From Onthophagus taurus (lineage: Eukaryota > Arthropoda > Insecta > Coleoptera > Scarabaeidae): DNA of 64,000 nt. Positions 3,321 to 64,000 of the stretch are shown piece by piece; position 1 is the first letter of the stretch, and every line of letters starts with the position of its first letter. Location of the stretch: positions 13,826,001 through 13,890,000 of the forward strand of contig NC_091967.1 in assembly GCF_036711975.1 (NCBI RefSeq). The letters are read 5' to 3'. A program made the translations under genes and the position numbers. Under the pieces are notes generated by a model, which did not search any database, was not told the DNA's origin, and saw nothing but the letters and a program-made list of their open reading frames with translations.

Positions 3321-4084
3321 AGTAGGTGCGAACGCACATATCTCTTAACGCGAACGATTCGACGAGTTCAAGTGAAATGATTTTCCACGTATTTTCCGTA
3401 AAAATAAAACTAACATTAACCGGAAACACGCTGCTATTAAATCCGTTGTTTGCAACATTTTTGTTTAGTCAATAATCGAGGTGTTTGTTACGACCGGAAT
3501 CGAAATTTTCATTGCCGGAAAAACCTTTAAGAACGAAAAATGAAACAACAAAAATGTCTTTTCACCAACCCAACCAACAGTCATCTAACAAAGTGTGCTC
3601 GAAGTCGTTTTCTTATAAGAACAGATTTTCTTCGGTCAATCGAAATACCCCCTCTTCAATGTGATCGCGCGGTTTTGGAAAAGCCCTGCGCCTAAGTCCG
3701 AGAAATCCCCACCACTTCATAGAAATAAGGGTGTTTTGCACACAGTTTTGCGATTCACGACGAAACTAACAAAGGCAGCAATGTGCATGCGGCCAAGTTG
3801 ACCTAGAAAGTAATTATATTGCGACTCCCCTCAAAAGCTAAACTTGTTGTTGGTGGTTAATTTTTATTGGCGTTGGATTTTCTTTTTACAACGCCGCAGT
3901 AGTATTAGGACGGCGAGCTTTCGAAAGGTTTTCCAACGTAAATTCAACGATCGATACGCAACGAACCATTTTTTTCCTTTCTTTTCTTCTTGGTGATTTG
4001 CATATTGCTTACGTAGATGAGAATTACGTCACAACAATTTTTTGAAATGACATGTTACATCTATATTAATTGAAACAAGATATT
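3321..4084. promoter_or_regulatory. nompC 5' flank
   Basis: This is the stretch directly upstream of the nompC start codon on the minus strand. It must hold the 5' UTR and probably the promoter, but I see no clear TATA box or X-box with confidence. It ends where the satellite array begins, so the satellite lies less than 800 bp from the start codon unless a remote 5' exon exists. Confidence 0.35.
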
Positions 4085-6108
4085 CCTAAAAGTAATATAT
4101 AAATTCATATCATATCATGATTCATAAAAGTACAGACGATATGGTTTTTTGAAAATATTGTATTATTTTTTATTATAAAAAAATTTATTAAAGAAGAACC
4201 AATTTCTTCTTTAATAATTTTTTCCTGAAAATTTCAATAATATTGTCTTATAATTTTTATATCATATCATAAGCTAGAACCTTTAAGCTTCAATTTAACA
4301 TACATATCATATCATTATTCTTAAAAATACAGTCGATATGACTTTTTGAAAATTTAATATCATCCTTAATTTATAAATTTGGTAATTTCTTCTTTAATAA
4401 TTTTTTCCTGAAAATTTCAATATTGTCATATAATTTTTATATCATATCATAAACTAGGACCTTTAAGCTTCAATTTAACATACATATCATATCATGATTC
4501 TTAAAAATACAGTCGATATGACTTTTTGAAAATTTAATATTATCCTTAATTTATAAATTTGGTAATTTCTTCTTTAATAATTTTTTCCTAAAAATTTCAA
4601 TAATATTGTCATATTATTTTTATATCATATCATAAACTAGAACCTTTAAGCTTCAATTTAACATACATATCATATCATGATTCTTAAAATCACAGTCGAT
4701 ATGATTTTTTGAAAATTTAGTGTCATTCTTAATTTATAAATTTAGTAACTTTCTTCTTTAATAACTTTTTCCTGAAAATTTTAATAATATTATCTTATAA
4801 TTTTTATATCATATCATAAACTAGAACCTTTAAGCTTCAATTTAACATACATATCATATCATTATTCTTAAAAATATAGTCGATATGACTCCTGAAAATT
4901 TTAATAATATTATCTTATAATTTTTATATCATATCATAAACTAGAACCTTTAAGCTTCAATTTAACATACATATCATATCATTATTCTTAAAAATATAGT
5001 CGATATGACTTTTTGAAAATTTAATATCATCCTTAATTTATAAATTTGGTAATTTCTTCTTTAATAATTTTTTCCTGAAAATTTCAATAATATTGTCATA
5101 TAATTTTTATATCATATCATAAACTAGGACCTTTAAGCTTCAATTTAACATACATATCATATCATGATTCTTAAAAATACAGTCGATATGACTTTTTGAA
5201 AATTTAATATTATCCTTAATTTATAAATTTGGTAATTTCTTCTTTAATAATTTTTTCCTAAAAATTTCAATAATATTGTCATATAATTTTTATATCATAT
5301 CATAAACTAGGACCTTTAAGCTTCAATTTAACATACATATCATATCATGATTCTTAAAATCACAGTCGATATGATTTTTTGAAAATTTAGTGTCATTCTT
5401 AATTTATAAATTTAGTAAGTTTCTTCTTTAATAATTTTTTCCTGAAAATTTTAATAATATTATCTTATAATTTTTATATCATATCATAAACTAGGACCTT
5501 TAAGCTTCAATTTAACATACATATCATATCATTATTCTTAAAAATAAAGTCGATATGACTTTTTGAAAATTTAATACCATCCTTAATTTATAAATTTGGT
5601 AATTTCTTCTTTAATAATTTTTTCCTGAAAATTTCAATAATATTGTCATATAATTTTTATATCATATCATAAACTAGGACCTTTAAGCTTCAATTTAAGA
5701 TACATATCATATCATGATTCTTAAAAATACAGTCGATATGACTTTTTGAAAATTTAATATTATCCTTAATTTATAAATTTGGTAATTTCTTCTTTAATAA
5801 TTTTTTCCTAAAAATTTCAATAATATTGTCATATAATTTTTATGTCATATCATAAACTAGGACCTTTAAGCTTCAATTTAACATACATATCATATCATGA
5901 TTCTTAAAATCACAGTCGATATGATTTTTTGAAAATTTAGTATCATTCTTAATTTATAAATTTGGTAATTTCTTCTTCAATAATTTTTTCCTGAAAATTT
6001 CAATAATACTATCTTATAATTTTTATATCATATCATAAACTAGAACCTTTAAGCTTTAATTTAACATATATACCATATCATAATCCTTAAAAATACAGTC
6101 GATATGAT
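4085..6108. repeat. Satellite array of about 183-bp units with a three-unit higher order
   Basis: The block containing cctttaagcttcaattta recurs at about 4286, 4466, 4649, 4833, 4953, 5136, 5319, 5503, 5686, 5869 and 6052. Spacing is 180-184 bp except one of 120 bp, which is a unit shortened by deletion. Three subtypes alternate: type 1 has attattcttaaaaatacag, type 2 atgattcttaaaaatacag with tattatcc, and type 3 atgattcttaaaatcacag with gtcattc. The order is 1-2-3-(short 1)-1-2-3-1-2-3, a repeat of about 550 bp made of three monomers. End units are more diverged. No coding potential is seen. Confidence 0.9.
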
Positions 6109-6781
6109 TGTTGGTGATTTTTTGACACTGTATCGTGTTAGAACGTTAGTTTCAAACGTGTGGGGAAATTTTTAAAACACTTTCACTTATATGAAAAACT
6201 TATTTTCGAAGAATTAGATTTTATATAAATATCATAAATTTATATAAAATTAATTGATGATAGTTCAGAAAATATTGATTTTAATTATCTGGGTTAATGA
6301 ATAAACTTTACCAAACTAAATTAAAATTAAATCATTAATAGAAAAAATAAAAATAAACCTGATGTCATAACATGCTTATCCATTGAAGTTCAATTTTTGT
6401 TTATGACTGAATAAGTAGAGCGTTTAACTTTGATATGTGTTGAAACAACGAGAGGGGTTGGCGAACCTTCAAAGAAAACGACGCGTGCTAACCAAAGGCA
6501 CGCTATACGTCCGGTTCAGTCCCTTAAAGAAACTTAGATTTACCTTCATTTCAAGTGGTAACCCAAATTTCCAAATACAAATTTAGCCTTTTTATCAAGC
6601 AAGGTCATAAGATTCATTTTACGTTATTGTTAAAAATAAAAATAAACGTTCTTATCAGATTAAAAAGCATCTAATAGCCGTTTATATCGACTTATCATTA
6701 TCAGCGTATTTAACATTAATTATAAAGAAATAAAACAACTTATCTTTCTATTTCTATGAGGGAATTTGGTCAGTGTAGATT
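6109..6781. other. Intergenic 5' flank of the acyl-CoA synthetase gene
   Basis: This is AT-rich sequence between the satellite and the first coding exon at 6782. It must contain the promoter and 5' UTR. I see no repeat or RNA gene in it. Confidence 0.4.
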
Positions 6782-8780
6782 ATGTCGAAGGTTTCAAAAA
6801 TTGTTTCTTATGGAAAGATTGGGTAAAATATTTTTTTTTTTAATCAAATTTTTCCATTCATCTCTTTTAGATGGAGATTTTCATCGACGTTAAGTTATAA
6901 ACACCAAGCATGTGAAGAACCACTTAGGCACATTTCCATTGGTACATTACTTGAGGAATCTGCAAAAAAATATCGAGATGTTCCCGCAATTATCTCAATG
7001 CACCAAAATGAAACTCTAACATATGGTGAGTTATTAAAAAAATCGGATCAGTTAGCAGCTTCTCTTCAAAGTCACGGTTTGGAAATCGGCGATAGAGTTG
7101 GTGTTTATCTTCCTAATCAATACGAATGGGTTATTATTATGTTGGCATGTTGCAGAGCTGGATTAATTACAGTAAGTATTAATCGAAATAATAATTTAAA
7201 ATAAACACTTTAAGTTTTAATTTATGTCAGGTGGCCTTAAATCCTTTTTACGAAACCCCCGAAATGGAATACTGCATTAATAAAGTTGGGATAAAGGCTT
7301 TATTTACTGGGGATAAAGTAAAACAACAAGATTATTACGAAATTATGAAAAATGTGGCGCCCGAATTACCCAATTGTGATCCCGGAAAATTGAAGTCAAA
7401 AAAAGTGCCTACCTTAAAAACTATTATACACTCAACAGATAAAGAAAATAAGTGAGAATTTTTGAAACAACTTAACACCCAAAAAATTTTTTTTTATTTT
7501 AGAGGAACATATACTTTCAACGAAATTCTTAATTTTTCAAATGAAACTCAAATCAAAAATATCCAAAAACATCAACATTTAATTGATTCAGACCTACCAT
7601 GTAATATTCAATTCACATCAGTAAACAATACCCCCAAAAATAAATCTTTTAAAAACATTCTAAATACATTTTTTTAGGGTACAACTGGAAAACCAAAAGC
7701 AGCCGTAATCAGTCATTTCAATCTGGCAAATAACTCCTATTTCATCTCAAAAAGAATGGAACTAAACAAAAAGCACCATAAAGTGTGCGTTCAAGTTCCA
7801 CTTTTTCACGCTTTCGGAACAACTATAACGATAGCTTCTGCGATTCATTTCGGAACAACTTTAGTTTTTCCAAGTTTAAGTTACAACCCTGAAAATAATT
7901 TGGATGCATTAGCCACCGAAAAATGCACCATAGCTCATGGAACTCCAACAATGTATGTTGATTTAATCAATGTTCAATCAAAACGGAAAGAAAACTTATC
8001 GTTGGAAGTTGCTTTAAATGGTGGTTCTCCATGTTCTCCAGAACTGTTACGTAAAATGATCGATGTGTTGGGTGTTAAACGTGTTAAATCGGTTTATGGA
8101 TTGACAGAAACGACCGGGTCATCATTTCATTCACTTCCTGGTGAATCCCAGGATCTCTCGATTAACACAGTTGGTCATCTTCAAGAACATTTGGAGGCGA
8201 AAATTGTTGATGAAAAAGGAAATACGGTTCCTATAGGAAAAAGAGGGGAATTATGGATAAGAGGTTATTCTGTTATGTTAGGATATTGGGGTGATGAAGA
8301 AAAAACTAACGAATTAATTACACAATCGAAATGGTTAAAAACTGGTGATCAATTTGTTATGTTCGAAAATGGTTATGGCAAATGTGTTGGACGGATCAAA
8401 GACATGATTATTAGAGGCGGAGAAAATATTTTTCCTAAAGAAATTGAGGATCTATTAAACACACACCAAAATATTTTAGAGACACAAGTAAAAATAAATT
8501 TAAAAAAATAATAGACAAAAAAATTTTAATTTTATTATTATGATTATAGGTTATTGGGATAACTCACGAAAGATTAGGTGAAGAAATTTGTGCGTGTATT
8601 CGATTAAATGATGAAGCTATCGATTTGAAATTGGATGATGTAAAAAAATTTTGCGAGGGAAAATTAGCCAAGTTTAAAATTCCTACTCAATTAAAAGTTA
8701 TGAAAACGTTTCCGAAAACAACGTCGGGAAAAGTGCAGAAACATATCTTAAGGAAATTAATTGAAAAGGAAATAAACTAA
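6782..8780 (+). CDS. Acyl-CoA synthetase, ACSF2-like (medium-chain, mitochondrial type)
   Basis: Members of this family activate fatty acids to acyl-CoA through an acyl-AMP intermediate. Six exons: 6782-6822, 6871-7171, 7231-7451, 7503-7620, 7678-8487 and 8550-8780. They add to 1722 nt, 573 residues, with no frame break; introns are 48-62 bp. The start MSKVSKIVSYGKIGWR is basic and Ser-rich, as in a mitochondrial presequence; an upstream ATG at 6756 is in another frame. Visible motifs are the AMP-binding signature FTSGTTGKPK near residue 225, VPLFHAFGT, YGLTETTG near 366, the hinge region TGDQF...GRIKDMIIRGGENIFPKEIE near 464-484, and the C-terminal lysine motif KTTSGKVQKH near 553. ACSF2 proteins are about 600 residues, so this gene looks whole and functional. 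The insertion NCDPGKLKSKKVPTLKTII between the N-terminal motifs is typical of ACSF2. Substrate chain length cannot be read from sequence. Confidence 0.92.
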
Positions 8781-12052: not shown

Positions 12053-14682
12053 TTAATCTTTTGGAAAAGATAAAGCATTCTTAGATGGATTAATAAAATC
12101 GTGAATCATTTTATGTATAACCTCATTAAGCAATCTTGTACCATCCCTCAAACCCATATCTTCCTTTTGCGTAATAAATTCAGCGCAATATCTTAATTTA
12201 GTATCCCCCGAATTTGCTCTAAGTGTAGCTTCAATTCCATTAATAAACTCAAAAGTAATCATTTGCATATTCGGTTGAACGGGAAAAACAGTCAACCTCC
12301 TATATGGATCACTGTTATCAAAACCAAGTGTTATATCACGAATATGAGTTATTTCAAATTTTCCTTCCCCAACCGATCTTGGATAAATTTTTATAAACTT
12401 TGACGACGGTGGATTACAACTACACCCTTTTCTTTTCTTTACTGTAGCATCTTCGTACGGTTCCGGAGCGCAATTACATGAATTTTTTGGCTTTTCCGGT
12501 ACGTTATCTTTGTACTCACGAAGATCGTTAAAAATGGATTCGATTACATCGTAATTTGCGGCGTTGAAATACGAACCATAATAAATATGAAACCCGTATT
12601 GGCTATAGATTTGATCTAACTTATCATCTAGTGTAAGATCCTTCGAAGTTAAATAGTTAACCATCGTCATTATTTGAATACTCGCTATAATTCCATCTTT
12701 ATCGAGAATTTCATCGGTAAACATATAACCGTAAGCCTCTTCGAAACCAAATATTACTTCTTTACCCTTTTCTCTTAATTTATATGCTTTATTGGCTGAA
12801 AATAAACAGTTAATTAGTTAAAAAATTATTTAAACTACATCTGTGTCAAATGATCTGTTAAGTTCTCAAAGGAGTTTCGAAAGCACATGGAGAATTTGCA
12901 TCGTGAACAAGAAACATTATCAATTTGGAAAAAACAAAAAGACATTATTAAAGACAGATATTTTGCAATGGATGTTCTGCTTAGCCTATTTCCTTTACAG
13001 TTGCATATAGAGAAAGTGGCCAGAACTACCATTTATAGGTTTAAGCAATATGCCCAAAACTGCTCCGACATGTCCTAACAATGGACTGCGGAAGACACTA
13101 TAAGTACTGATATTGTGCTATCGTTCAGCTCTGGGAACGGAGCTATAAGTTCAGCTCCGAAGATTCCAAGATGTGCCAAACGTGAAGCGATGTAATGTTA
13201 GAAACAGAAACTTTCTCAACTGTCTCCAGAATCATAACCATTTTTGGTCGATTTCACTCAATTTTCAACGATGGTGTTAAAGAAAATTAAGTTGAATAAT
13301 CTTACCGATCCATCTAAATCCTGGAAGTGTTTCAACAAAATTAAATTTTTCTTCTCGTGCCATAGTTCTTAAAATTTTTGAACTAACCGTAGTCGCAATC
13401 ATATAAACATTTTTTAAATCTAACGTTTCTTCGTTCCTCTTTTTATACTGATCTAAAGTCCACCAACCAAACAAAGCACCTAATTCATTTCCATCAAAAG
13501 TTTTCCATGTTATATTGCTAAAATGAAATTATAATAGTGAATATAGTACTATTAATTAAATTCATACTCTTTTCCCAATTGAGAAAATGTTATCCTACAT
13601 CCATCAGGATCAGCCGCTATAACATACTTAATCTTATTTGTTTGAGCCAGATTTTTAGCTTTCTTTATTGATTTAGGATCTTCGGGGTTTGGATTTTTAG
13701 TCGTTGGAAATGTTGGATCGGGGTTAATTTGGCTGGGAACCGGTTCTATCATCAAACAGTGATTATCGACGACTTTTTTGAACACTTCATAAGTTACTCC
13801 ATGAAGAGCGGTAAAAACAAATTTATTTGTAGATTTTGAAGCAATCGCTTTATACTCATTTATTATGCTGTCGCTCACTAATTCTACATAACACTCAAGT
13901 ACTTCATCGTAAGGATCTGTTAACATACAAGGTTTTGCGTACTCTAAACCATCAGTATCCCAACTCTGCGCTCTGGGTTCTAAGCGTGTTAAAATAGTGG
14001 CATCTATCTCCTCATCTGTTGGTGGAATTATTTGACAACCATTTGATGTAAATATCTATGTTACAAAAAAAAAGAATTTGGATTTACACTAAAAAGTAGT
14101 ATTTTTAATTATTACCTTAATTCCATTGTAAGTTTTTGGACAAGCTCCTCCTGAAATCATGATACCAGCTACACATTCAAATAGTGTAACCGCATAAGGA
14201 ACAAAAGAAGTTATAACTTCTTTACTAAACATTCTGACTGGATAAGTTTGGCCAATAAAAATATTAGCGAGAAGTTCTGAGTATCTTTTACTGTTATAAC
14301 GTCCATCGTAACCAATAACAACACCGAACAGTTTTAAATCGTCCTTATTAAGATCTTCTAAATACTTAACTAATCCTTGGCCGATTTGAATTACCATCAA
14401 ATCATTTATACCATTAAATCCCGGTACCATATCACCTTTAATCGTTCCCCCGACGATTTCTAACCGCTCCATAAACATATTCTTAAGAGTATTTAAATCT
14501 TTTTTGTGTATTAACGTTTTTACCAAGTCGGAATTGCAGTGATTTTTTTCCCATTTTAGGTAGTCTTTGATGATCGGATCGAGATTTTTGTCACCTGTTT
14601 TGAATTCGTCATCAAAACTATCAAATGGATCATTCGCTACGCATTTTATAACACCTTTCTGTTGGTTTTTTAAAGAACCCAT
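12053..14682 (-). CDS. Phosphoglucomutase-2-like protein, copy A (predicted pseudoenzyme)
   Basis: Ordinary PGM2 interconverts hexose or pentose 1- and 5/6-phosphates. Four exons, in transcript order: 14682-14116, 14055-13568, 13517-13306 and 12795-12053. They total 2010 nt, 669 residues (human PGM2 has 612), with exon junctions in phases 0, 2 and 1. All four domains align: GYDGRYNSKR, FVFTALHGV, DPDGCR (338-343), NELGALFGWW, FGFEEAYGY (438-446), LDKDG, and GKFEITHIRD. The catalytic loop ITASHNPK is ISGGACPK (176-183), so the phosphoserine is Gly179. The third Asp of the metal loop DPDADR is Cys342. The FGTAGLR motif reads VGGTIKG, and the phosphate loop TSGTEPK reads NSGDTK. The sugar-binding FEEA loop is kept. 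Domain 4 has an extra segment with cysteines 529, 531, 547 and 549. Normal mutase activity is unlikely. Confidence 0.93.
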
Positions 14683-14743
14683 TAAGGGAAATTACTTATA
14701 ATTTAGGTGGAATTTTCTAATTTTTTTTTCTTTTTATATATAA

Positions 14744-14756
14744 TGTCTTAATGACA
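14744..14756 (-). promoter_or_regulatory. Shared 13-bp palindrome upstream of copy A
   Basis: On the minus strand this reads TGTCATTAAGACA, 62 bp upstream of the copy A start codon. A TATA-like ATATATAAAAAG follows toward the gene. Copies B and C have the same motif at nearly the same distance, so it is probably a promoter element of the family. Confidence 0.55.
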
Positions 14757-15037
14757 TTTCCTAAATATGTACGTCATAGAATAATGCAGAAAACGATAAT
14801 CATAATTAATTAAATCCAGGTGTATTACTCTCATATGACGAGGATGGTAAAAGCATTGATTATACTACTCGAGATTGCTAACCATATGTATAAAGCCGGC
14901 AACTGTATATGTATATAAATGTATATGGGTTGCATCACGCACTGTTTATTCTCAAAAAGAGAATAAATGTAGATAAGTGAGATAGAGTCATAATAAGAAA
15001 AGAGACGATCAATTAGCCCCGACCTCAAAGGACGTCA
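14757..15037. other. Spacer upstream of copy A
   Basis: Sequence between the copy A promoter motif and the first inverted-repeat element. I see no gene here. Confidence 0.3.
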
Positions 15038-15850
15038 CCTATATATATATATACCATATATATACTATCTTCTATATCGCTGACTAAGGCAGCAAAAGAG
15101 TGTAAACACTAGAGTGCAGATATATATATATCTGTCTTTGTCGTACCCCCGTCGACTCAAGAGACATGTGTGAACACGTGATGAGTACGCTTTTATCTTA
15201 TTGGACGGTGAATTAAAAATTAATAGCAACTGATGACCTTGATGTTTATAAATCAACAAATAAATGTTTGACATAAACATAACCTAAAATCTAAATATTT
15301 AGTTATGTATATTATAGGTTTCATGTGTATAATAACATAATTATTAACATATTTTAGGACTAAGCAATTTAAAATGTAATTGTTATTTGTTAAGAAAGTG
15401 AAGCAAATGTGTTAAAAGTAAAATAAAAAAGAAAAAGAGTAGTGGAGATATTTTTGGGTCCTAAAAATTGGTTGAGCAGGTAGAAGGAAAGGTCTCAGTG
15501 TAATAAAAAAGAATTCAAAGTCCTCCTTTTCTTGAAACATTTTTCTTTATAAACATTTAGAGTACATATACTCTAATTTATTTGATGCATCAGTGATAAT
15601 TTATAGTTAAAGTAAACCATCTACAATAATAATTGCATTTTAAAGCTGCATAAAATACGCGCGAAACACTTCAAACTCTTTAAAATTTACGATTCGCGCT
15701 AGCGCTTTCGCGACACGGGGGTACGACAAAGACAAAACATATATCATTCCGTCTTCTTTTGATGGAAACGCTCGCCACTCATTGCTTAGATAGGGAGTCA
15801 GCGATATAGAAGATAGTATATATATGATATATACACTGTATCTAAATGAC
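15038..15850. mobile_element. Inverted-repeat element, family unknown
   Basis: Two arms face each other. The outer block ctatcttctatatcgctgac at about 15065 is mirrored near 15795-15825, and the inner block tttgtcgtacccccgt at about 15138 is mirrored near 15713-15728. Both arms carry (TA)n runs. The middle has no recognisable protein. It looks like a non-autonomous terminal-inverted-repeat element of about 0.8 kb, with arms that have diverged by insertions. Confidence 0.6.
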
Positions 15851-16692
15851 ATCAAAGAAATAGCATCTGAAAAAGTTTTCTTCATCTCTCTCATTATCCG
15901 AGGAATAAAATGCTTTCACTTTGCTCAAGGGTTTAATGTTTAAGGGTCGATAGCTAACAATTAATACATAAAGTTGATTGGTGTTACTTAGATACAATCG
16001 TTACTATTTAAAATTCTCCTTAGAAAGAATCTTAAAAACGCACCAAAATGAAGTAGGACTAATAAACATTTTACTGAAGGAAATAATAACAATCTTTAAA
16101 TGTGGAAATGTCTTTTAGTGTATCTTGTTTAGTGATTTGATGGCGTGAATTGGCGCACGCATCTATTAAAGAAAAAAAAATTAAATAAAATAAAAGTTAT
16201 GTAAAGCAAACGCTAGGGCCTCCGTGCCTAACCGTGAGATCAACTATTGAAACAAATTATGAAAGAAATAAATAAATATAATTTATTTAAATAAATTAAA
16301 GAAAAAATACAATATTTAAGGCATATATTCGAACATAGACGCTACAATACTAATTATTATAAATTATCTTATCGCATATACTCTAATAACGACTAGCGGT
16401 AATGGTGAGGAAAACGAGAATAAATAAAGAAAACTTAGCGTAAATCTAGCTTAAACTATGGGCACAAACGAGAGAAGAATCATGTTTAAAGAATCTGCCA
16501 GTTCCAAGATTCCGGAGGGGACTGAAAGCTATTATCACGGAAAATCCGATATATACCATTGACATGTTTTTCCAATTTAATGTTTGAATTCAATTTGTAT
16601 TATATCACAATGTAATTATTGTTAAATTGACGCACTCTATGCTTTTTTGTAAAATGGAGAAATAAAATATTATTATTAAAATATTAAAAATA
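15851..16692. other. Spacer between inverted-repeat elements
   Basis: AT-rich sequence with no gene or repeat that I can name. Confidence 0.3.
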
Positions 16693-18025
16693 TTATTCCT
16701 TGTGGAAAATATATTGAATACTTCCATATCTTGAGCTAGTGTACCATATGTACATATGAATAGAACATTCGTGCAAAATTATTTAATATTAAAATAGTAT
16801 TATTTAAGTGTTTGCCGAACCTATCCTTTGATATCGACTCCTTCCGCTGACAGAATGAGAGTCATTCGGCTTGCGCATACTACATATCAATCCTATTATT
16901 CCACGTGGAAAATAACATGATGCAGATATACCCACTTCATAGGCATGCTGGAGGGTTTGTAAGCCTCGCTAACGACAATGCCTCCATGAAAGTACTACCT
17001 CTCATTGAGATCAGAGCATTATGGTTATTTTCCACGTGGAATAATAGGATTGATATATAGTATGCGCAAGCCGAATGACACTCATTCTATCAGCAGAGGG
17101 AGTCCATACCAAAGGATAGGTTAGGCAAACACTTAAATAATACTATTTTAACATCAAATTATTTTGCATGATTACTCTATTTACATATACATATGGAAAA
17201 CTAGCAGCTTCAGATATGGAAGTGTTCAATATGCTTTACACATAATTATTCAGCCAGACGCAAGCTTTCGTTTGAGATATAGAACATTGAAATCGTTCAA
17301 ACCGTTCTTTAGTTATAGCGAATTTAATCAAAATTATTTTTTTTCTAACTAGGGGCCAGACTTCCAGTCGGTAGATACGTGGAGTCATTTAAATGGTAGG
17401 TTAGGCCAACACTTAAATAATAGTATTTTAATATCAAATTATTTTGCATGAATATTTTAGTTATACGTATATATGCAATTTTTATTATAATTCCTCGTGG
17501 AAAATATATTGAATACTTCTATATCTTGAGCCAGTGTACCATATGTACATACAAATAGAAAATTCGTGCAAAATAATTGAATATTAAAATAGTATTATTT
17601 AAGTGTTTGCCGAACCTATCCTTTGATATCGATTCCTTCCGCTGACAGAATGAGAATCATTCAGCTTGGGCATACAGCATATCAACCTATTATTCCACGT
17701 GGAAAATAACCATGATGCAAATATACCCACTTCATAGGCATGCTGGAGGGTTTGTAAGCCTCGCTAACGACAATGCCTCCATGAAAGTACTAACTCTCAT
17801 TGAGATCAGAGCATCATGGTTATTTTCCACGTGGAATAATAGGATTGATATGTAGTATGCGCAAGCCGAATGACTCTCATTCTATCAGCTGAGGGAGTCC
17901 ATATCAAAGGATAGGTTAGGCAAACACTTAAATAATACTATTTTAATATCAAATTATTTTGCATGATTATTCTATGTATATGTATATATGGAAAACTAAC
18001 AGCTTCAGATATGGAAATAGCCAAC
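16693..18025. mobile_element. Tandem pair of about 520-bp foldback elements with CCACGTGG near the arm tips
   Basis: Copy 1 (about 16716-17236) and copy 2 (about 17507-18025) are each near-palindromes with arms of about 200 bp. Shared landmarks are gtttgccgaacctatccttt on the left, its complement aaaggataggttaggcaaac on the right, and tattattccacgtggaaaat against attttccacgtggaataata nearer the loop. The loop holds ggagggtttgtaagcctcgc. Both copies start after the same flank (tcctygtggaaaatatattg), so the whole 0.8-kb block was duplicated in tandem. A broken third right arm lies at about 17396-17475. Confidence 0.8.
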
Positions 18026-18200
18026 GTTCCACATTGGAGCACCAGACTCATCCGCGAGTCCATCGAAATAGAGAAGAACGGTACCTTCAACAAGAGAAAT
18101 GACGCCCTGCACTTGTCAGCCACTTGGAAAACGGTCCTACACCGTCCCCGATCCGGAGCAGCCTTCCTGAGGGAGGGGATTTTGGGCAGACCATAGAGTT
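18010..18200 (+). mobile_element. Penelope-like retroelement fragment (C-terminal end)
   Basis: The plus strand reads HWSTRLIRESIEIEKN...FNKRNDALHLSATWK, the conserved stretch that ends the endonuclease part of many Penelope-like elements (HW.TR..RESIEI.....N.R...L.LS..W). It joins directly onto the right arm of the second foldback copy, so the foldback may be part of this element's terminal structure. The reverse transcriptase is absent; this is a fossil. Confidence 0.65.
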
Positions 18201-18364
18201 TGGGGCACCTGCTTGATTTTTCCCGAGGGATTAAAGTTTTCTTGATCTCGGGGCCTATTGGAGATGCCTCTATTATCGATTTGGTGTTTTTTTCCAGGTA
18301 AGTTGTATGGTTTTTTGCTGCAAAAAAAAATTAAAAGTCATATAAACGATGAAAATATTTTATT

Positions 18365-18416
18365 TCGGTGCTATCTTCGAAGATTTCGAACGATTATCGT
18401 TCTTCTTCAGGCAGGA
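18365..18416 (-). ncRNA. Hammerhead-ribozyme-like motif (degenerate candidate)
   Basis: On the minus strand: CTGAAGA (18410-18404, fits the core CUGANGA), one extra A, a perfect 6-bp hairpin GAACGA-TAA-TCGTTC, then GAA, then a short stem ATCT-TCGA-AGAT, then A, then GCA, which pairs with the TGC before CTGA. This is the type I hammerhead order with the short stem III known from Penelope-like retroelements, and Penelope sequence lies 170 bp away. The extra A after the core and the weak stem I argue that it is degenerate or a chance match. Confidence 0.35.
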
Positions 18417-20580
18417 CTAAGGAACATTCAAATATAACAAAAACACAGATAAAAAATATATATAATTACCGTCGGTGTAGGAGCATCGAGAGTGAAGAGA
18501 GTATTGTTTCAGAGTATTTCTTCAAAAAGATTCCGTTTACGAAAAATTCAAATGTAAAAAAACTTGAAGAGTCAATTGAAAAATCCAAAAAATTAAAATG
18601 GCGTTTTTCTATTCATCGTAAATCTCGTTTTTCAAAGTGTTTAAAAATAAATGTTAAAAATTAACGACAAAACAAATTACCAAACCTGTAGAGAAAGAAC
18701 CATATTAACTAAATATAAGAAATCAAAAAAGAAAGAAAATTTTTAAACTTACAATTAACACGTTAAAATTTCCTTTAAAATTAAATAACTTGAGTCAACA
18801 TGATGAGGGATGAAATTGGACTGAAGGCCATAAGGAACGTTCGCCAGATGATAAAGGTGAAAGAGTGAGGGAAAACGAGTGGGAATAAAAACGTCAACAT
18901 AAAATCTTTCCATACTAAATTAATTCTTCGCATCATTAAAAATCTGAAACATAAAATTAAAATAGAAAATCGGATTGTTACCATGGGAGACAAAAATGCA
19001 GGCCTCGTTGAGTTGGATAAAGAGTCATACATAAAAAAGACATTAACTTTTTTCTAAGAAAATAACATTTTAAAAATTAAGAATAATTTTATCTTTGTTT
19101 GTTTATTTATTTATTTATCTTTATCTCTCTAGCTCGACCTCTAGCACTTCCAGGTATGCGTTCTTCTTCCGAAAGGTTTTCTTCTTAGAAGAAACAACAT
19201 ATGCTTGTATAAAGCTAGATCTACACGATACGCGAACTGGTTCGCCACTTCATTGAAGTATCTCTAGCCAAGTACCCCTACCTCAAGTACCTCTATCTCT
19301 ATCTCAAGTACCTCTATCACTACCTCAAGTATCTCTATCTGAAGTACCTCTACCTCAAGTACTATAATAAATGTCAAGCTCGACCTTTTAATATATTTTG
19401 TTTCCGTGCCTTTTAACCCCTTATTACTATATTATTTCAAAATATTAATAAAAGATAAAGCTTGTTTACAATTATGGACCAATAATTTTAGGTTTAATAA
19501 CTAGTTTTAAATAATAATTATAGATATTTAAAGCAAATCAACTAAAATAAACTCCGCCTGCGACGTTAAGCCCGCCTTTACCAACTTTTTCCGTAGAAAC
19601 TGGTGGAAACAACCTGTCAGTTATCTCGGGATTTCCCCAAGTACTTAACTTAAAACCAGATAGAACAACTCTTAAAATTGTTCAAAGTATTGAAAAAATT
19701 TCTCTAAAAATTAATATTATTTTTTAATGAAAATAAACTGGTAGAAACAACCGGTTTTTACGGAAAACGTATAATGTTTTCATACAATAAAATTTTATTT
19801 ATTAATTAAAAAAGAAATATTAAACAATTTTTATTATTAGTACAAGAAAATATAAGAGGGGGAATATAAATCAAAAATAGTGCTGCCATCTCTTAATCAT
19901 ATCCATTATTATTATAAAATCCACCAGCGCCCCCATAGCGGACAAATCCAAAAATAACACTTTACGCGTTACCAATTTTTACGTAGCGGTTAGCAGTCTG
20001 GTATAAAATAGTCAATGGTAAAAGTAACATTTATGATTAATGTACGGTTGCAATCAAAAAATTATAACTTATAACAATCAAACATGCAGAGTTGGATTTA
20101 AAAAATCGTAACAACGATGATTAGGAGAAATAAGAAATTATTTGTGGTTTCCTTTAAATTGCCTTTTTGTTTCATACCGATACCTCAATTAGTTTTTGAG
20201 ATACGTAAAGATTATCCGAATATTTTTATGTTTAAGTTTATGTAAGGTTGCAATCAAAAAATCATAACTCCTAAATTTGAAGATTCGAAGAAATGATCTT
20301 CAATACATTAAATATTAAATAAATTTACTTTAAATTGCATTTCATTTCATGATGATATCTCAATTAGTTTTTGAGATACGATTTTTTTAATATCAGCTCT
20401 TAATGTTTAGAATAATCAAAGAAAAAAATTGAGTTTTTAATTCATTTAACGTCACAAAAGTGATCCAAAACAAAAAGAATTTAGTAATTGTAAATAAAAA
20501 GTCAACAAATTTTTATATTTATTATTCTTACTTTGCTTTCATTATTTTTAGTTTCAAAATAAAATCATCCCTTATTTGCT
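18417..20580. other. Spacer between copy A and copy B, with simple and dispersed repeats
   Basis: No host gene is supported. A frame at 18368-18664 is rich in Lys and Ser and matches nothing I know. At about 19255-19370 there is a degenerate array of ctcaagtacctctatc-like units. At about 20043-20195 and 20234-20395 a diverged repeat occurs twice in the same direction (ggttgcaatcaaaaaat ... ctcaattagtttttgagata). At 19605 and 19735 gaaactggtggaaacaacc is also seen twice. Confidence 0.45.
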
Positions 20581-23500
20581 TTAATACTTTCTTAAAGATA
20601 AACCGTTTTTAGTCGGATTAATAAAATCACAAATAATTCTATGAATAACTTCACTAACCAATCTCCGTCCATTTGATATACTCATACTCCTCTTTTTAAC
20701 AATTAACTCCGCGCAATATCTCAATTTTGCTTCTTTGGGGTTCATTCTAAGTGTGGCATTAATACCATTAATGAATAAAAAAGTTATCATTTGCATATCT
20801 GGTTGAATAGCAAAGGTTGATTTTCTATCAGGTTGACTATTATCGTAACCAACCGATACATCCCGAATGTAATCGATACAAAATTTTCCATGTCCAACCG
20901 ATTGAGGATAAATTATCTGATTCGGATTTTCATAGTGTCCAAACGCACAATTACACGACTTTTCCAGTTTATCCTGCACGTTATCTTGTTGGTGATGACG
21001 AATTTCGTCAAAGATTTTCTCAATCACCTCATAACTTTGAGCGGTAAAATATGAGCCAATGTTGATATGAAATCCATATTGGGTGTAAATTTCATCTAGT
21101 TTATCGCCAATACTTTGCTGCTGTGAATTTAGAAACGAGACTATCGTCATTATTTGTACACTGGCTATTATTCCATCTCTATCTAATAACTCATCGGTGA
21201 ACATATAACCATAATCGTCGTCAAAACAGAAAATTACTTCTTTACCTTCTTGTTTTAAATCATATGCTTCGTTAGCTAAAAAGATTTTTTTTTAATTACA
21301 ATTTAGTATTATTAATTTTATTCGTGTCTGAGGATGACCTAGCGATTGAAATCTGTACCACCGAACACATTGATAACGATCTTAATGATGATGATGAGTT
21401 TAGAATCAATTTTATAAAGAAAGATTAATTATTGTATCATGTTTTTAAATGTATCCTTTTTGAAATTAATATAAATTAAGTAATTTGGTACTGCCATCTA
21501 TAGTCGCGGAGAAAAGTAATGCTTACAATCGGAAATTATACATGTTTACCTTCTCGGCGCTAAAGCCGATAAAACCTCGTATTGGACTAGTCCACTAGAT
21601 GGCTAAATATGAACATAAAAATTTTTAGTTTTTATTAATCAATTATTTTTAAAAACAATATGTGTTAGAGACGACATAAGTGTGTTTAGAAACATTTTTT
21701 TTTAAGTTACCGATCCATCCAAATCCCGGAAGAGTTTCAACGAAATTAAATTTTTCTATTTCTGCCATGGTTCTTAAAATTTTTGAGCTAACACAACTAG
21801 CAATCATATAAACATTTTTTAAATCCACCTTTTTTTCTTTCTTCTTCTTGTACTGATCTAAAACCCACCAACCGAATAAAGCTCCCAATTCGTTAGGATC
21901 AAAAGTTCTCCATGTTATATTACTGAAATTAAAATATAAAAAAAGTTATAAAAGAATCATTATTACTTTCATACTCTATTCTGAGCTTAGAAAAAATCGT
22001 TCTGCATCCATCAGGATCGGCTCCAATAACATATCTAAGCTTACTCTTTTGAGCTAGATTTTTAGCCTTATTCAATACCAGTGGATTTTCAGGATTCGGG
22101 CTTTTAATCAGAGGAAATTTTGGATCTGGTTCGATTTCAGTAGGGACTGGTTCTATTTTCACACAGAGATTGTTAACGACTTGTTTAAAAATATCATAAG
22201 CAACTCCGTGTAGTGCGGTGAAAACAAATTTAATAGGCGATTTTGAAGCTATCACTCTATACTCTTTTATTATAATGTTATTCACCAATTTAATGTAACT
22301 TTCAAGAATTTCTTCATAAGGATCCGAAAACAATGCCAAATCGGCATATTCTAAAATTTCGGTGTCCCAACAATGTTGCTGAGGTTCCAAATTTTCCAAA
22401 ATAAACTTCTGTATTTCTGACTCCATGAGTGGGGTCACTTGACAACCATTTGAAGAAAAAATCTAGGACAAAATATAAACTTTTTTTTTAGAAATTGATG
22501 TTTACGACAGAATTTAAGTGTATCTTTAGATGTTTTTGCAAATAACTTATTTGTTATGTTATTTTATCTGATTTTAGTACTTATCAAATAATTTCGATGT
22601 TTATCAAAAGATGACACTGTAAACGAACAATTGGTTTGCATTTAATACTAAGTTACGTAATAGCTACGACAAAGTTATTCATCTTTCTAAGACTGCACAA
22701 AACCAGCATCAAACGATAATTGCTTTGTTCAATCTGGAGTTAGATTATACATGTATTATTTAACGCAGTAGAAGAAACATTCAAAATTGCAATTTGATCA
22801 TTTGCCAAAGTTGCCATCAATCCACATACTTGCGAAAAAATATACTAGATATTACATTGAGTTAGGTTGAATTGGATTGGATTGGGTTAGGTTAGGTTGG
22901 GTTGAGGGACAAATGCTGGGATGGATACTTGCTGCAGGGTGAAGGCTGAAAGAAGACATGAGGGGGGCTATTTCATAAATCAAAGATATTTATTTTATTT
23001 CATAATGCTATAGAGATGAACCAAAACCATGAACTGCAACGAGGTCAAAGAAGGGCAAGGGAAAAAAGGACGCCTAAAAAGTTAATGAAGGGAAAGACCA
23101 AAAAAGATCTCAACTAGGTTTCAACACTATAGATTGTTCCGAGCGAGTATTAAGACGTCATGGAAGACAGGACAAGAACGAGAAAGAAAGGAAGAAGAAG
23201 GGAAAAAGAAAATAAGAAGCAACCCCGAAGAAATGCCCTGGTGGGTGGTTCCGGGGTATGGAAATGGGGAGTTTTTAGTGGGTAGCTGTGGCTATGATAG
23301 CAGGAAAAGGTAGGAAAAGGCAAGATGTTTGTCAAAACGCCTCCAGAATAAAAAATCTAGAAAACCACCTATGTCCATTCCTTCGAAACCATATACCAAA
23401 ATTGGTATTATAAGGGTCTTATAAATTCAGATTTTTGTACTTTGGGAAATGTTAGTTGTATGAAGCCGTGGAACTTGGACAGGCTGAATTAGCATTTATT

Positions 23501-24601
23501 CGCACATACGATGCATTTTTTAATTTCTTCAATCTAAATATAGGATAAAAGCTGAAACAGTTGTCCTGATTATCACCAAATGTAATGTCAGCGTAGTTAT
23601 GGACAAAAAGAAATGCGACGACAAGATAAATATATTTAGCAGACACTTATGGCGGAATTATGGATTATCAAAATTCCAAATAAAGGAACCAAAACTTTTT
23701 TAGAAAACCAATTCAAAAAGTAAGCATAAACTTTTGATAAGCACTAACTTTAGCTAAACTGCAATGTGATAGCGTTTATTGTTTACACATAAAAACGGTC
23801 CGGCATTATTATATCAGCTGTGTCCCTAAACGTCTCTATTCTTAAATATAATGATTTTTAACTTACAGAATTTTTAATAACAGAAGCAAATAACGTTATG
23901 TTTCACAGAACCATCTTTTTACAAACACCAAATAACAAACAGAAAACTTTTTTAATTAATTTTCAAAACATTTCCTGGTATTTTGTAAATAAATTTACAC
24001 TTTCTGTCGTAAATTATTACTCCCTAAAATTTCTTTTAGATATTACTTTAATCCCGTTAACATTTTTTGGGCAAACTCCACCTGATATCATGATACCAGC
24101 TACGCAATCATATTTTGTAACTGTAAAGGAAACAAATGGAGTTATAATTTCTTTACAAAACATTTTCACTGGATAATTTTCTACAACGAAAATCGTGGCG
24201 ATAAGTTCCGCATATCTTTTACTGTTATTTCTTGCATCATAACCAATCACAATGCCGAATTCTCTTAAATTAGCTTTATCAACATTTTCTAAATACTTTA
24301 GTAATCCTTGCCCGGTTTGAATAACCACCAAATCATTCATACCGTTATACCCTGGTATCATATCACCTTTAATCACACCTCCAATTATTTCTAATCGATT
24401 TAGTAACATTTTTTTGAGGGTGACTATGTCTCTTCTTCGCACCAATGCTATTATATGCTCTCTGTTGCTTTGAATTTTCTCCCATTTTAGATAATTTTGT
24501 ATGATCGGATCGAGGGTTTCATCGTTCGTACTAAATTTATTGTACACAAGATCAGTTACTTCACATTTTAAATTTATAATTTTTTGGTTTGAGTCACACA
24601 T
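20581..24601 (-). CDS. Phosphoglucomutase-2-like protein, copy B (predicted pseudoenzyme)
   Basis: Four exons: 24601-24047, 22462-21975, 21922-21711 and 21275-20581. They total 1950 nt, 649 residues, with the same junction phases as copy A; exons 2 and 3 are exactly the same lengths (488 and 212 nt). The first intron has grown to 1.6 kb. The catalytic loop reads ISGGVCPK (172-179), with Gly175 in place of the phosphoserine. The metal loop reads DPDGCR (334-339). The phosphate loop reads RMNPKEAK, with no trace of SGTEPK. This copy has also changed the sugar loop, FCFDDDYGY instead of FEEAxGY. It keeps only the first cysteine pair of the domain-4 insertion (SCNCAF) and lacks the second. It is the most altered of the three but has no stop or frame break, so it is probably expressed with a non-mutase role. 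Confidence 0.92.
21276..21710. other. Copy B intron 3, with probable transposon remnant
   Basis: The plus strand at about 21325-21430 has an acidic frame (EDDLAIEICTTEHIDNDLNDDDEF) ending in a stop, and nearby gccatctatagtcgcgg and ccactagatggc. This composition is unlike the host gene and looks like the end of a transposon. I could not name the family. Confidence 0.3.
22463..24046. other. Copy B intron 1 (1.6 kb), with telomere-like stretch and repeat debris
   Basis: About 22855-22905 on the plus strand contains gggttaggttaggttgggtt, close to the insect telomere repeat TTAGG. It is followed by purine-rich sequence to about 23400 that looks like transposon remains. No extra exon is supported. 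Confidence 0.4.
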
Positions 24602-24671
24602 TAATAAAAAAAATTTTGAATTTTGATTAATAAGGTCAGATCTTATCTTGTATTATTTTTTTTATACAAAT

Positions 24672-24684
24672 TGTCTTGATGACA
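24672..24684 (-). promoter_or_regulatory. Shared 13-bp palindrome upstream of copy B
   Basis: Minus strand TGTCATCAAGACA, 71 bp upstream of the copy B start codon, followed by a TATA-like TTGTATAAAAAA. The whole gap between copies B and C is only 207 bp, so promoter B must lie in it. Confidence 0.55.
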
Positions 24685-24808
24685 ATTTATAGCTTCATTT
24701 TTAGTCGCCATCTATTGAAATGTATTACAACTATAAAATTACTTTAAACAATAAAAATTTTTTGTGATATCTTTAATCGCAATGTTTAAAAAAAAATTTT
24801 TTTTGTAT

Positions 24809-27046
24809 TCAACTTCGAGGTAATGATAAACAATTTTTTGTCGGTTTTAAAAAATCATTAATAATTCTATGCATAACTTCTTTAACTAATTTCGTACCAT
24901 TCAACAAACCCAAATCTTCCTCTTTTGTAATAATCTCAGCGCAAAATCTTAACTTGGCTTCCTTAGGATTTGTTCTAATCGTAATTTCAATGCCATTACT
25001 AAACTCAAAGGTAATCATTTGCATATTCGGTTGACGTGGAAGAACCGACTTTCTGTTAGGTTCATTATTATCGAAACCAATTGTTATATCTCGAACGTGA
25101 GTTATATCAAATTTTCCTTTTCCAATCGTTCTTGGGTAAATTTTTTTATCTGGCGGGGGAAATGGGTTGCAACAACACCCTTCCTCTTTCTTCAATGGAT
25201 CTTTGTAAGCTTCTGGGATGCAGTGGCACTTCTCTTGTGGTTTTTCCGGTTCGTCGCCGTGATAATGACGAATCTCTTCAAAAATTTGTGCGATATCATC
25301 GTAACTTACGGCGTTGAAATATGAACCATAATTGATATGAAATCCATATTGCGCGTAGATTTCGTTAAGTTTATCTTCAAGGGTTTGTTTTTGCGCATTT
25401 AAAACGGCGACCATCGTCATTACTTGAACGCTCGCTATAATTCCGTCTTTATCGTAAAGTTGATCGGTAAACATGTAACCGTAAGTGTCTTCAAACCCTA
25501 AAATTACTTCTTTTCCTTCTTGTTTTAAGTCATAAGCTTTATTTGCTAAAAAAACATTTCATTGGCGTTTTATGAACTTCATTAAATTAGTTATGTACCT
25601 ATCCATCTAAATCCTGGAAGAGTTTCAACAAAATTAAATTTTTCTGTTCGTGCCATAGTTCTTAATATCTTCGAACTAACTGAACTTCCTATCATATAAA
25701 CATTTGATAAATCAATAACTTCGTCTTCTCCTTCTGTAGGATGTTTCTTTTTATACTGATCTAGAACCCACCAGCCAAATAAAGCTCCTAATTCGTTGCC
25801 GTCAAAAGTTCTCCATGTTACATTACTAAAATAAAAATGTTAATGAAACTTAACAAAATTTTATTAATTTTATACTCTTTTCCCAGTTGAGAGAAAATCA
25901 TTCTACATCCATCAGGATCCGTTCCAATAACGTACTTAATCTTTTTAGAAACAGCTAAACTTTTTGCTGCGTTCAAAGCTTTAGCATCTTCCGGATTAGG
26001 ACTTCTAACACTTGGAAATTTTGGATTTGGTGCAATCTGTTTAGGAACTGGTACTATTTTCAAAGAAAGTACTGAAACGACTTGTTTAAATACATCATAA
26101 GCAACTCCATGAAGTGCGGTGTATACAAATTGAATGGGAGACTTTGAAGCTATGGCTAAATATTCTTCTATTACAGTAGTACATACTAATTGGAGATAAG
26201 CATCGAGTACGTCAGTATAAGGATCCGTTAACATTGGAGCCAATTGCAAAATATCGCTCTCCCAACAATGCTCCATTGGTTCTAAATTTTCTGAAATATG
26301 ATTTTCTATTTTTAAATCTGCTGATGGGATTACTTGGCAACCATTTGAAGTGAAAAGCTGTTTCAAATAACAATTTAATTTTATTATAAATAAAATTATT
26401 ATTTTTTTAATACCTTAATTCCATTATAAGTTTTTGGACAAGCCCCTCCTGAAACCATAACACCCCCAACACAACCAAGTGTAGTAATAGCATAAGACAC
26501 AAAAGGAGTTATGACTTCTTTACTGAACAATTTCACCGCATAATTTTGGCTGAGAAAAATCGTTGCAATGATTTCTGCGAATCTTTTACTATTAACTCGG
26601 GCATCATAACCAATCACAATACCGTATTTTTTTAAATAATTCTTTTCATCTATCACCATCTCCATTTCTTCTTCTTCTACATCTCCTTCATCATTCTCTT
26701 CCCAGACCACCTCTGGTACCTCTTCTTCCACAATTTCCACTTCCTCCTGCTCTTCCGCATCTCTTTGCCTTTTTTCTTCAACGGTTTCCAAATACTTAAT
26801 AAATCCTTGTCCAATTTGTATAACAACCAATTCATTTATCGCGTTAAATCCCGCCACCATCTCTCCTTTAACTGCCCCTCCTAACAGTTCTGCTCGATTC
26901 ACTAACATTTTTCTGAGAGTAATTAGTTCTTTTTTGTGCACCAACGATTTTACCAATTCCAAATATTCCTCGTTTTTCTCCCATTGCAGATATTCTTTAA
27001 TTTTCGGATCGATGTTTTTATCATACGTTTTAAATTCATCACCCAT
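24809..27046 (-). CDS. Phosphoglucomutase-2-like protein, copy C (predicted pseudoenzyme with acidic insertion)
   Basis: Four exons: 27046-26414, 26357-25876, 25825-25599 and 25545-24809. They total 2079 nt, 692 residues, with the same phases as copies A and B. The catalytic loop reads VSGGACPK (198-205), Gly201 replacing the phosphoserine. The metal loop reads DPDGCR (358-363), the sugar loop GFEDTYGY, and the phosphate loop RTNPKEAK. Two additions stand out. Residues about 89-136 form a Glu/Asp-rich stretch inserted between GFIKYLETV and KYGIVIGYDAR, absent from copies A and B. The domain-4 cysteine segment has C554, C556 and C571-573. Exon 3 is 15 nt longer than in the sisters. The gene is compact, with introns of 50-60 bp. 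Intact frames and splice sites suggest a working protein, but ordinary mutase chemistry is unlikely. Confidence 0.92.

Positions 27047-59244: not shown

Positions 59245-64000
<4,756 letters not shown>

Follow-up and report, generated by a model that had tools for sequence, protein, structure and literature searches.

Three tandem PGM2-derived genes of the beetle Onthophagus taurus appear to encode pseudoenzymes under purifying selection

What becomes of phosphoglucomutase-2 (PGM2) copies that no longer carry the catalytic serine: are they still enzymes, are they decaying, or are they kept for another role? The question is raised by three adjacent genes, here called A, B and C, in a 64,000-nucleotide stretch of the O. 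taurus genome (RefSeq assembly GCF_036711975.1, contig NC_091967.1, positions 13,826,001–13,890,000 of the forward strand). This whole stretch is referred to as the window and its first letter is position 1. Judged from their sequences, A–C are probably catalytically dead pseudoenzymes that descend from a PGM2 duplicate and that purifying selection has preserved for a role other than catalysis.

All three genes lie on the minus strand with intact spliced frames (A, 14682–12053, 669 residues; B, 24601–20581, 649 residues; C, 27046–24809, 692 residues), separated by 207 bp between C and B and by 5.9 kb between B and A. Each has four exons with intron phases 0, 2 and 1, and GT..AG was found at all nine introns. 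Pairwise identity is 60–63% among the three proteins and 40–43% to the PGM2 of the same genome. Searches were run over the whole genome (290.8 Mb in 33 contigs), in which the window lies within contig C2 (30.8 Mb). Its insect origin shows in 134 matches to the insect-type odorant-receptor family 7tm_6, against zero in 14 prokaryotic controls; the telomere pattern TTAGG gave two overlapping matches at a single internal site, compared with 10 for the reversed control, and so carries no information. Six exon frames (three from A, two from C and one from B) each gave one PGM_PMM domain (I, II or III) in Pfam above the curated cut-off, although exon 4 of B barely exceeded it (21.3 versus 20.7 bits); domain I of B and domain II of B and C were detected in Pfam domain searches of the genome itself. 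Domain IV (PF00408) matched one place genome-wide, outside A–C, outside a fourth copy, D (described below), and outside PGM2; because it is silent in all of these alike, it does not discriminate between them. NCBIfam returned weak mutase matches far below the cut-offs, alike for A, D and PGM2, and two distant prokaryotic mutases were the sole matches in a PDB sequence search. A CxC...CxC insert precedes YPRS in A and C; B has the first CxC only. In C alone, domain I carries an insert of about 44 residues that is strongly acidic (26645–26782).

All six catalytic loops are degraded in A–C. In the order A, B and C, the serine loop reads ISGGACPK, ISGGVCPK and VSGGACPK, the FGTAGLR loop reads GGTIKG, GGVIKG and GGAVKG, the SGTEPK phosphate loop reads SGDTK, PKEAK and PKEAK (in the context NSGDT or NPKEA) and GFKW reads GFRW, GFGW and GFRW, with the Lys gone from all three. 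The metal loop retains the first two of its three aspartates (DPD), with Cys in place of the third. Both proposed acid/base positions are changed (Arg62 to Lys; Lys398 to Arg, Gly and Arg, respectively), and FEEA, the sugar-specificity Glu pair, is kept in A and changed in B and C. Normal catalysis has very likely been lost from A–C, which lack the features of a phosphohexomutase enzyme: TASHNP, the three DxDxD aspartates, FGTAGLR, the GFKW Lys and SGTEP. A preliminary description of this DNA had reported three PGM2-like genes without the catalytic Ser, in full frames of 649–692 residues with identical splice phases; this holds, as do its readings of the Ser loop, DPDGCR, loop 0 and the phosphate loop, on the spliced frames, in each of which the Ser motif is SGGxCP. 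Its account of the metal aspartates is right for the third, but the other two are retained.

The extent of the change was gauged on 102 near-invariant columns, defined by one residue in at least 95% of 91 bacterial PGM2-type rows and the identical residue in the PGM2 of this genome. The bacterial rows were collected with a degenerate pattern around TASHNP, which gave at least 120 loci; 27 that were cut off and two with low coverage were dropped, leaving 91. This outgroup is narrow, as most of the 80 bacterial loci listed by title are actinobacterial; an earlier scan of bacterial genomes with PGM2 had given no match. A keeps 63 of the near-invariant residues, B 56, C 62 and D 49; 51 columns are kept in A, B and C together, and at 17 all three have switched to an identical new residue. 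Among the lost residues are the Ser, the third metal Asp, Lys398, three residues of loop 0 (Arg, Thr and Ala) and four of the phosphate loop (Ser, Gly, Thr and Pro); DPD, HGV and the NELG..GWW stretch are kept in A–C. Columns of the old catalytic loops are identical among A–C at 32 of 53 positions, compared with 275 of 554 elsewhere (Fisher p = 0.15), and no special constraint on the old loop columns among the three genes reached significance (p = 0.15–0.64). As these columns are conserved like the remainder, the pocket region is not simply drifting.

The divergence among A–C fits purifying selection, and the proteins look constrained. Ratios of nonsynonymous to synonymous divergence (dN/dS; NG86) are 0.22–0.27 at dS values of 0.9–1.3. 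A codon model fitted to 629 codons of A–C gave a ratio (omega) of 0.245, and omega = 1 was worse by 260 in twice the log-likelihood difference; IQ-TREE gave matching log-likelihoods for the three-gene set. Three separate omegas (0.24, 0.22 and 0.29) brought no better fit (log-likelihood −5351.24 versus −5351.83). When neutral drift was simulated with the fitted lengths and today's sequences as the start (2000 runs per gene), means of 31–36 in-frame stops accumulated and none of the 2000 runs for any gene was free of stops, whereas A, B and C hold zero. The missing catalytic residues would also be expected of decaying pseudogenes that are open by chance, but this explanation, set against the codon models, the stop simulations and the intact splice sites, was rejected as extremely improbable. 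The statement in the preliminary description that the proteins are still selected, and the comparison of dN/dS between copies that it had proposed, thus both come out in favour of constraint, far from omega = 1.

Three of the 17 identically changed columns are Cys in A, B and C (N161, D321 and Y578 in PGM2 numbering; Cys181, Cys342 and Cys626 in A), where the bacterial rows have Asn in 91/91, Asp in 91/91 and Tyr in 90/91. N161 lies in the Ser loop, D321 is the third metal Asp and Y578 is just past the phosphate loop; the three sites are within or beside loops that face one active site in phosphohexomutase structures. With Cys at about 2% of residues, 0.3–0.4 such columns would be expected, and at least three would arise with a binomial probability of 0.004–0.008, in a test that is post hoc, the pattern having already been seen. 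New chemistry with another acceptor, such as these cysteines, is one way in which A–C could remain enzymes, but the acid/base positions and the phosphate loop are changed as well and we know of no phosphohexomutase that uses Cys; an altered enzyme is accordingly very unlikely. It is unlikely, too, that the Mg/phosphoserine pocket has been rebuilt as a thiol or soft-metal pocket and that A–C are zinc- or redox-binding proteins on a phosphoglucomutase scaffold, a reading suggested by the three shared cysteines, the two kept metal aspartates and the CxC added in the C-terminal insert.

A doubtful possibility is that A–C still bind sugar phosphate or glucose 1,6-bisphosphate, do not turn it over, and modulate the activity of PGM2 or of other enzymes. 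The two metal aspartates, NELG..GWW and HGV, together with FEEA in A, would be in keeping with such ligand sensors, as would old loop columns that are no less constrained than the rest; the loss of the SGTEP phosphate loop and of the GFKW Lys from all three genes, and the altered Glu pair in B and C, argue against them. Herring PGM5 is inactive but binds glucose 1-phosphate (G1P; PMC7761743), which would be a precedent; PGM5, however, still has the Ser and the metal site, its substrate contacts are almost identical, and hence it is a weak model. More generally, PGM5 (aciculin) is a phosphohexomutase paralog reported to be inactive, with structural and partner-binding roles (PMC7761743, PMC5570346). 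It is nearest to PGM1 and confined to vertebrates; human PGM5 keeps TASH, the herring protein has Arg for the His, and the metal site is retained, with G1P binding in herring (PMC5570346, PMC7761743). A–C resemble it as mutase paralogs, with loss of activity reported for PGM5 and predicted for them, but they have lost all of TASH and group with PGM2, and so do not belong with PGM5/aciculin, which has PGM1 as nearest relative and the Ser kept.

The reading of A–C as pseudoenzymes gains support from the rest of the genome, in which catalysis could be carried by an intact PGM2, the housekeeping phosphopentomutase/phosphoglucomutase. This conventional gene, a search for which the preliminary description had proposed, was found on C2 at 7.295 Mb with domain I and protein A as queries; it has six exons, encodes 621 residues and retains FGTAGLR, TASHNPK, DPDADR, GFKW, FEEA and SGTEPK intact. 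Marks of a pseudoenzyme observed here are a paralog with intact motifs in the same genome, catalytic residues lost from the copies and retention by selection, seen in this case between paralogs; a further mark, the lack of measurable activity, is predicted for A–C. A fourth degenerate copy, D (L008), lies outside the window at C2:7278127–7281006, with seven exons and 642 residues. It lies upstream of PGM2 on the same strand, with 14.3 kb between its end and the start of PGM2 (the starts are 17.2 kb apart), and the pair is about 6.5 Mb from A–C on the same contig. The loops of D read YGFKG, GLSTGSSNENG, NNSDCSR and YNYKLTP. The Ser column of D still holds a Ser and its GFKW Lys is present, but the phosphate loop and two metal Asp, the first and the third, are gone. 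Since D keeps the Ser and Lys and has lost different residues, D and A–C do not share one common complete set of losses, and on their sequences the inactivation of D and of A–C is at least partly independent. The description of A–C as a tandem family of three is therefore correct for the window, but the family is wider. Likewise, the proposal that the loss came before duplication stands for the A/B/C triplication (17 identical changes) but not clearly for the first duplication, given the Ser of D.

Protein A, searched against the whole genome, gave 22 matches among the best-scored candidates, all inside A, B, C, D or PGM2. A further domain I match (L007) was read as a PGM3-type hexosamine mutase. 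Neither the window nor 28 kb around D and PGM2 contained PGM2-like relics, matches outside known genes having only E > 0.5. PGM1 was not found genome-wide with four Pfam domain searches, two motif patterns or a fly PGM1 sequence used complete and in pieces, the protein queries being run without a positive control. Glucose-6-phosphate isomerase (PGI, L163) was found at once at C7:10105440–10106915; as a single open frame spans the whole Pfam profile, there are no introns there.

By descent, A–C are on the PGM2 branch of the alpha-D-phosphohexomutases, as judged from a tree of A–D, PGM2 and 31 of the 91 bacterial rows, with PGM1 outside the set. A–D and PGM2 came together (100/100) against the bacterial rows; A–D formed one group (100/97) beside a short-branched PGM2, with A–C nested inside (100/100) and D on a long branch. 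Within A–C, a tentative pairing of B with C drew 87/21. The introns tell a similar story. One of phase 2 before (N)ITW/SGEW is common to A, B, C, D and PGM2. Two introns of A–D, of phase 0 after NGIK/NGLQ and of phase 1 after RWI/KWL, have no counterpart in PGM2; the PGM2 introns after FPTVK, before YPRS and near the C-terminus are present in D and missing from A–C; and no copy from A to D has the PGM2 intron that follows NSKR. This map places D as an intermediate between PGM2 and A–C, and a common origin of A–D is supported by these sequence comparisons.

The most economical history would be as follows. PGM2 duplicated in place, leaving D where it is now found, 14 kb upstream. As the intron map and tree suggest, the sister lineage of D would then have ended up about 6.5 Mb away on that contig, with the three introns shared by D and PGM2 gone, and its tandem triplication would have come after the phosphate loop, the Lys, the catalytic Ser and the third metal Asp had been lost. 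In the three copies, constraint has held on the reading frames and on roughly half of the near-invariant positions (including DPD, HGV and NELG..GWW). The likeliest role of their proteins would be that of a folded scaffold or a binding partner, with the male germline as the most probable place, to judge from the class of proteins with which they are compared below.

Several results weigh against this account. Approximately unbiased (AU) tests fail to reject a clade of D with PGM2 (p = 0.221) or of A–C with PGM2 (p = 0.229), and the shared-change columns are split, with four for A–C and D, three for A–C and PGM2 and none for D and PGM2. PGM2 may itself have lost the two introns peculiar to A–D, which are then not necessarily derived. 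The older branches are saturated in the codon model (lengths at the bound), making branch-specific omegas on them unusable. Long-term retention is judged from the divergence between paralogs. As to foldability, two AlphaFold jobs on exon sequences with three-row alignments gave poor models (mean predicted local distance difference test scores of 44.5 and 35.0); Foldseek with the better of them gave no match at E = 0.001, and its top matches were unrelated. The placement in the germline is by analogy alone.

That analogy is with insect enzymes copied and disarmed elsewhere. The sperm-leucylaminopeptidases (S-Laps) belong to an enzyme family unrelated to the phosphohexomutases. Like A–C, they are an expanded insect family; two members, S-Lap1 and S-Lap6, are inactive by assay, and a structural role in sperm mitochondrial derivatives, a feature of the S-Laps themselves, has been demonstrated (PMC6388916). 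Carbohydrate enzymes of Drosophila have 28 described non-canonical paralogs; 18 are known or predicted to be inactive, and nearly all of the 28 are testis-restricted, with ten adjacent pairs given as likely products of tandem duplication (Zaru and Marygold 2025, PMC11836677). As with Tktl, Pykl1, Hexl, Khkl1 and others of that set, a canonical, active-looking enzyme and diverged copies without active-site residues, predicted to be inactive, occur here in one insect genome; the testis restriction is reported for the Drosophila paralogs, while A–C are known here from sequence. This class, mostly testis-specific in Drosophila, is the best-fitting one for A–C by analogy, although the main text of that paper, Figure 1 contents apart, does not mention PGM. 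Guided by these paralogs, the S-Laps and PGM5, we rank a scaffold or partner role first and a sensor or regulator second, and consider the male germline the likeliest place of action; structural or germline roles such as those of other insect pseudoenzymes would fit A–C at least as well as the sensor or regulator put forward in the preliminary description.

Duplications of PGM2 have been reported in Drosophilidae, Tephritidae and the common ancestor of Cerambycidae, Chrysomelidae and Curculionidae, and a possible link of the duplicates with ascorbate synthesis has been raised (PMC11377030). A–D are likewise insect PGM2 duplicates and may stem from one of these published events; the main text of that paper has no wording on catalytic loss. 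The vertebrate PGM2L1, a glucose-1,6-bisphosphate synthase, is also a closest paralog of PGM2 with a changed function but, unlike A–C, is active and keeps TASH (PMC5570346). Among the titles and abstract openings listed by literature searches, with most subscription papers outside the coverage, none described PGM2 copies of insects as catalytically inactive. Dead enzyme copies are already known in insects, and A–C would add a case on the PGM2 branch, which thereby joins the carbohydrate enzymes copied and disarmed in this group. One genome holds what look like stages of this: an intact PGM2, a differently degraded neighbour and a distant triplicated set. Counts of insect PGM2 duplicates used for metabolic capacity, for example in ascorbate synthesis (PMC11377030), may include non-catalytic proteins. 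A specific and cheap test is offered by the change of three pocket residues to Cys in all three copies. The exons and altered loops of A–C are listed in Table 1.

Table 1. Exons and altered active-site loops of genes A, B and C, in window positions, with the domain content or the basis of each assignment.
Feature	Position	Strand	Content or basis
C exon 1	26414..27046	-	domain I, 44-column acidic insert; PF02878 3.7e-19
C exon 2	25876..26357	-	domain II, DPDGCR; own-genome PF02879 match L039
C exon 3	25599..25825	-	splice model
C exon 4	24809..25545	-	end of domain III and C-terminal part, Cys-rich insert; PF02880 5.5e-8
B exon 1	24047..24601	-	own-genome PF02878 match L003
B exon 2	21975..22462	-	DPDGCR; own-genome PF02879 match L038
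B exon 3	21711..21922	-	splice model
B exon 4	20581..21275	-	PF02880 3e-4, 21.3 bits vs cut-off 20.7
A exon 1	14116..14682	-	PF02878 1.9e-15
A exon 2	13568..14055	-	DPDGCR; PF02879 9.5e-17
A exon 3	13306..13517	-	splice model
A exon 4	12053..12795	-	Cys-rich insert, degenerate phosphate loop; PF02880 1.8e-7
A SGGACPK replacing TASHNPK	14134..14154	-	Ser to Gly, Asn to Cys181
B SGGVCPK replacing TASHNPK	24065..24085	-	alignment
C SGGACPK replacing TASHNPK	26432..26452	-	alignment
A DPDGCR metal loop	13594..13611	-	third metal Asp to Cys342
B DPDGCR metal loop	22001..22018	-	alignment
C DPDGCR metal loop	25902..25919	-	alignment

Elsewhere in the window, a gene for an AMP-binding (acyl-CoA synthetase-like) protein lies at 6827–8511 on the plus strand and one for a tyrosine kinase with an SH3 domain at 62633–63166 on the minus strand; no functional link of either neighbour to the PGM2-like genes was seen. 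Repeated self-inverted elements, perhaps a transposon with inverted ends, occupy 16691–18016 between A and B. A tandem satellite array with a unit of about 183 bases extends from 4097 to 6113 and is very AT-rich (19% GC in 4001–6000).

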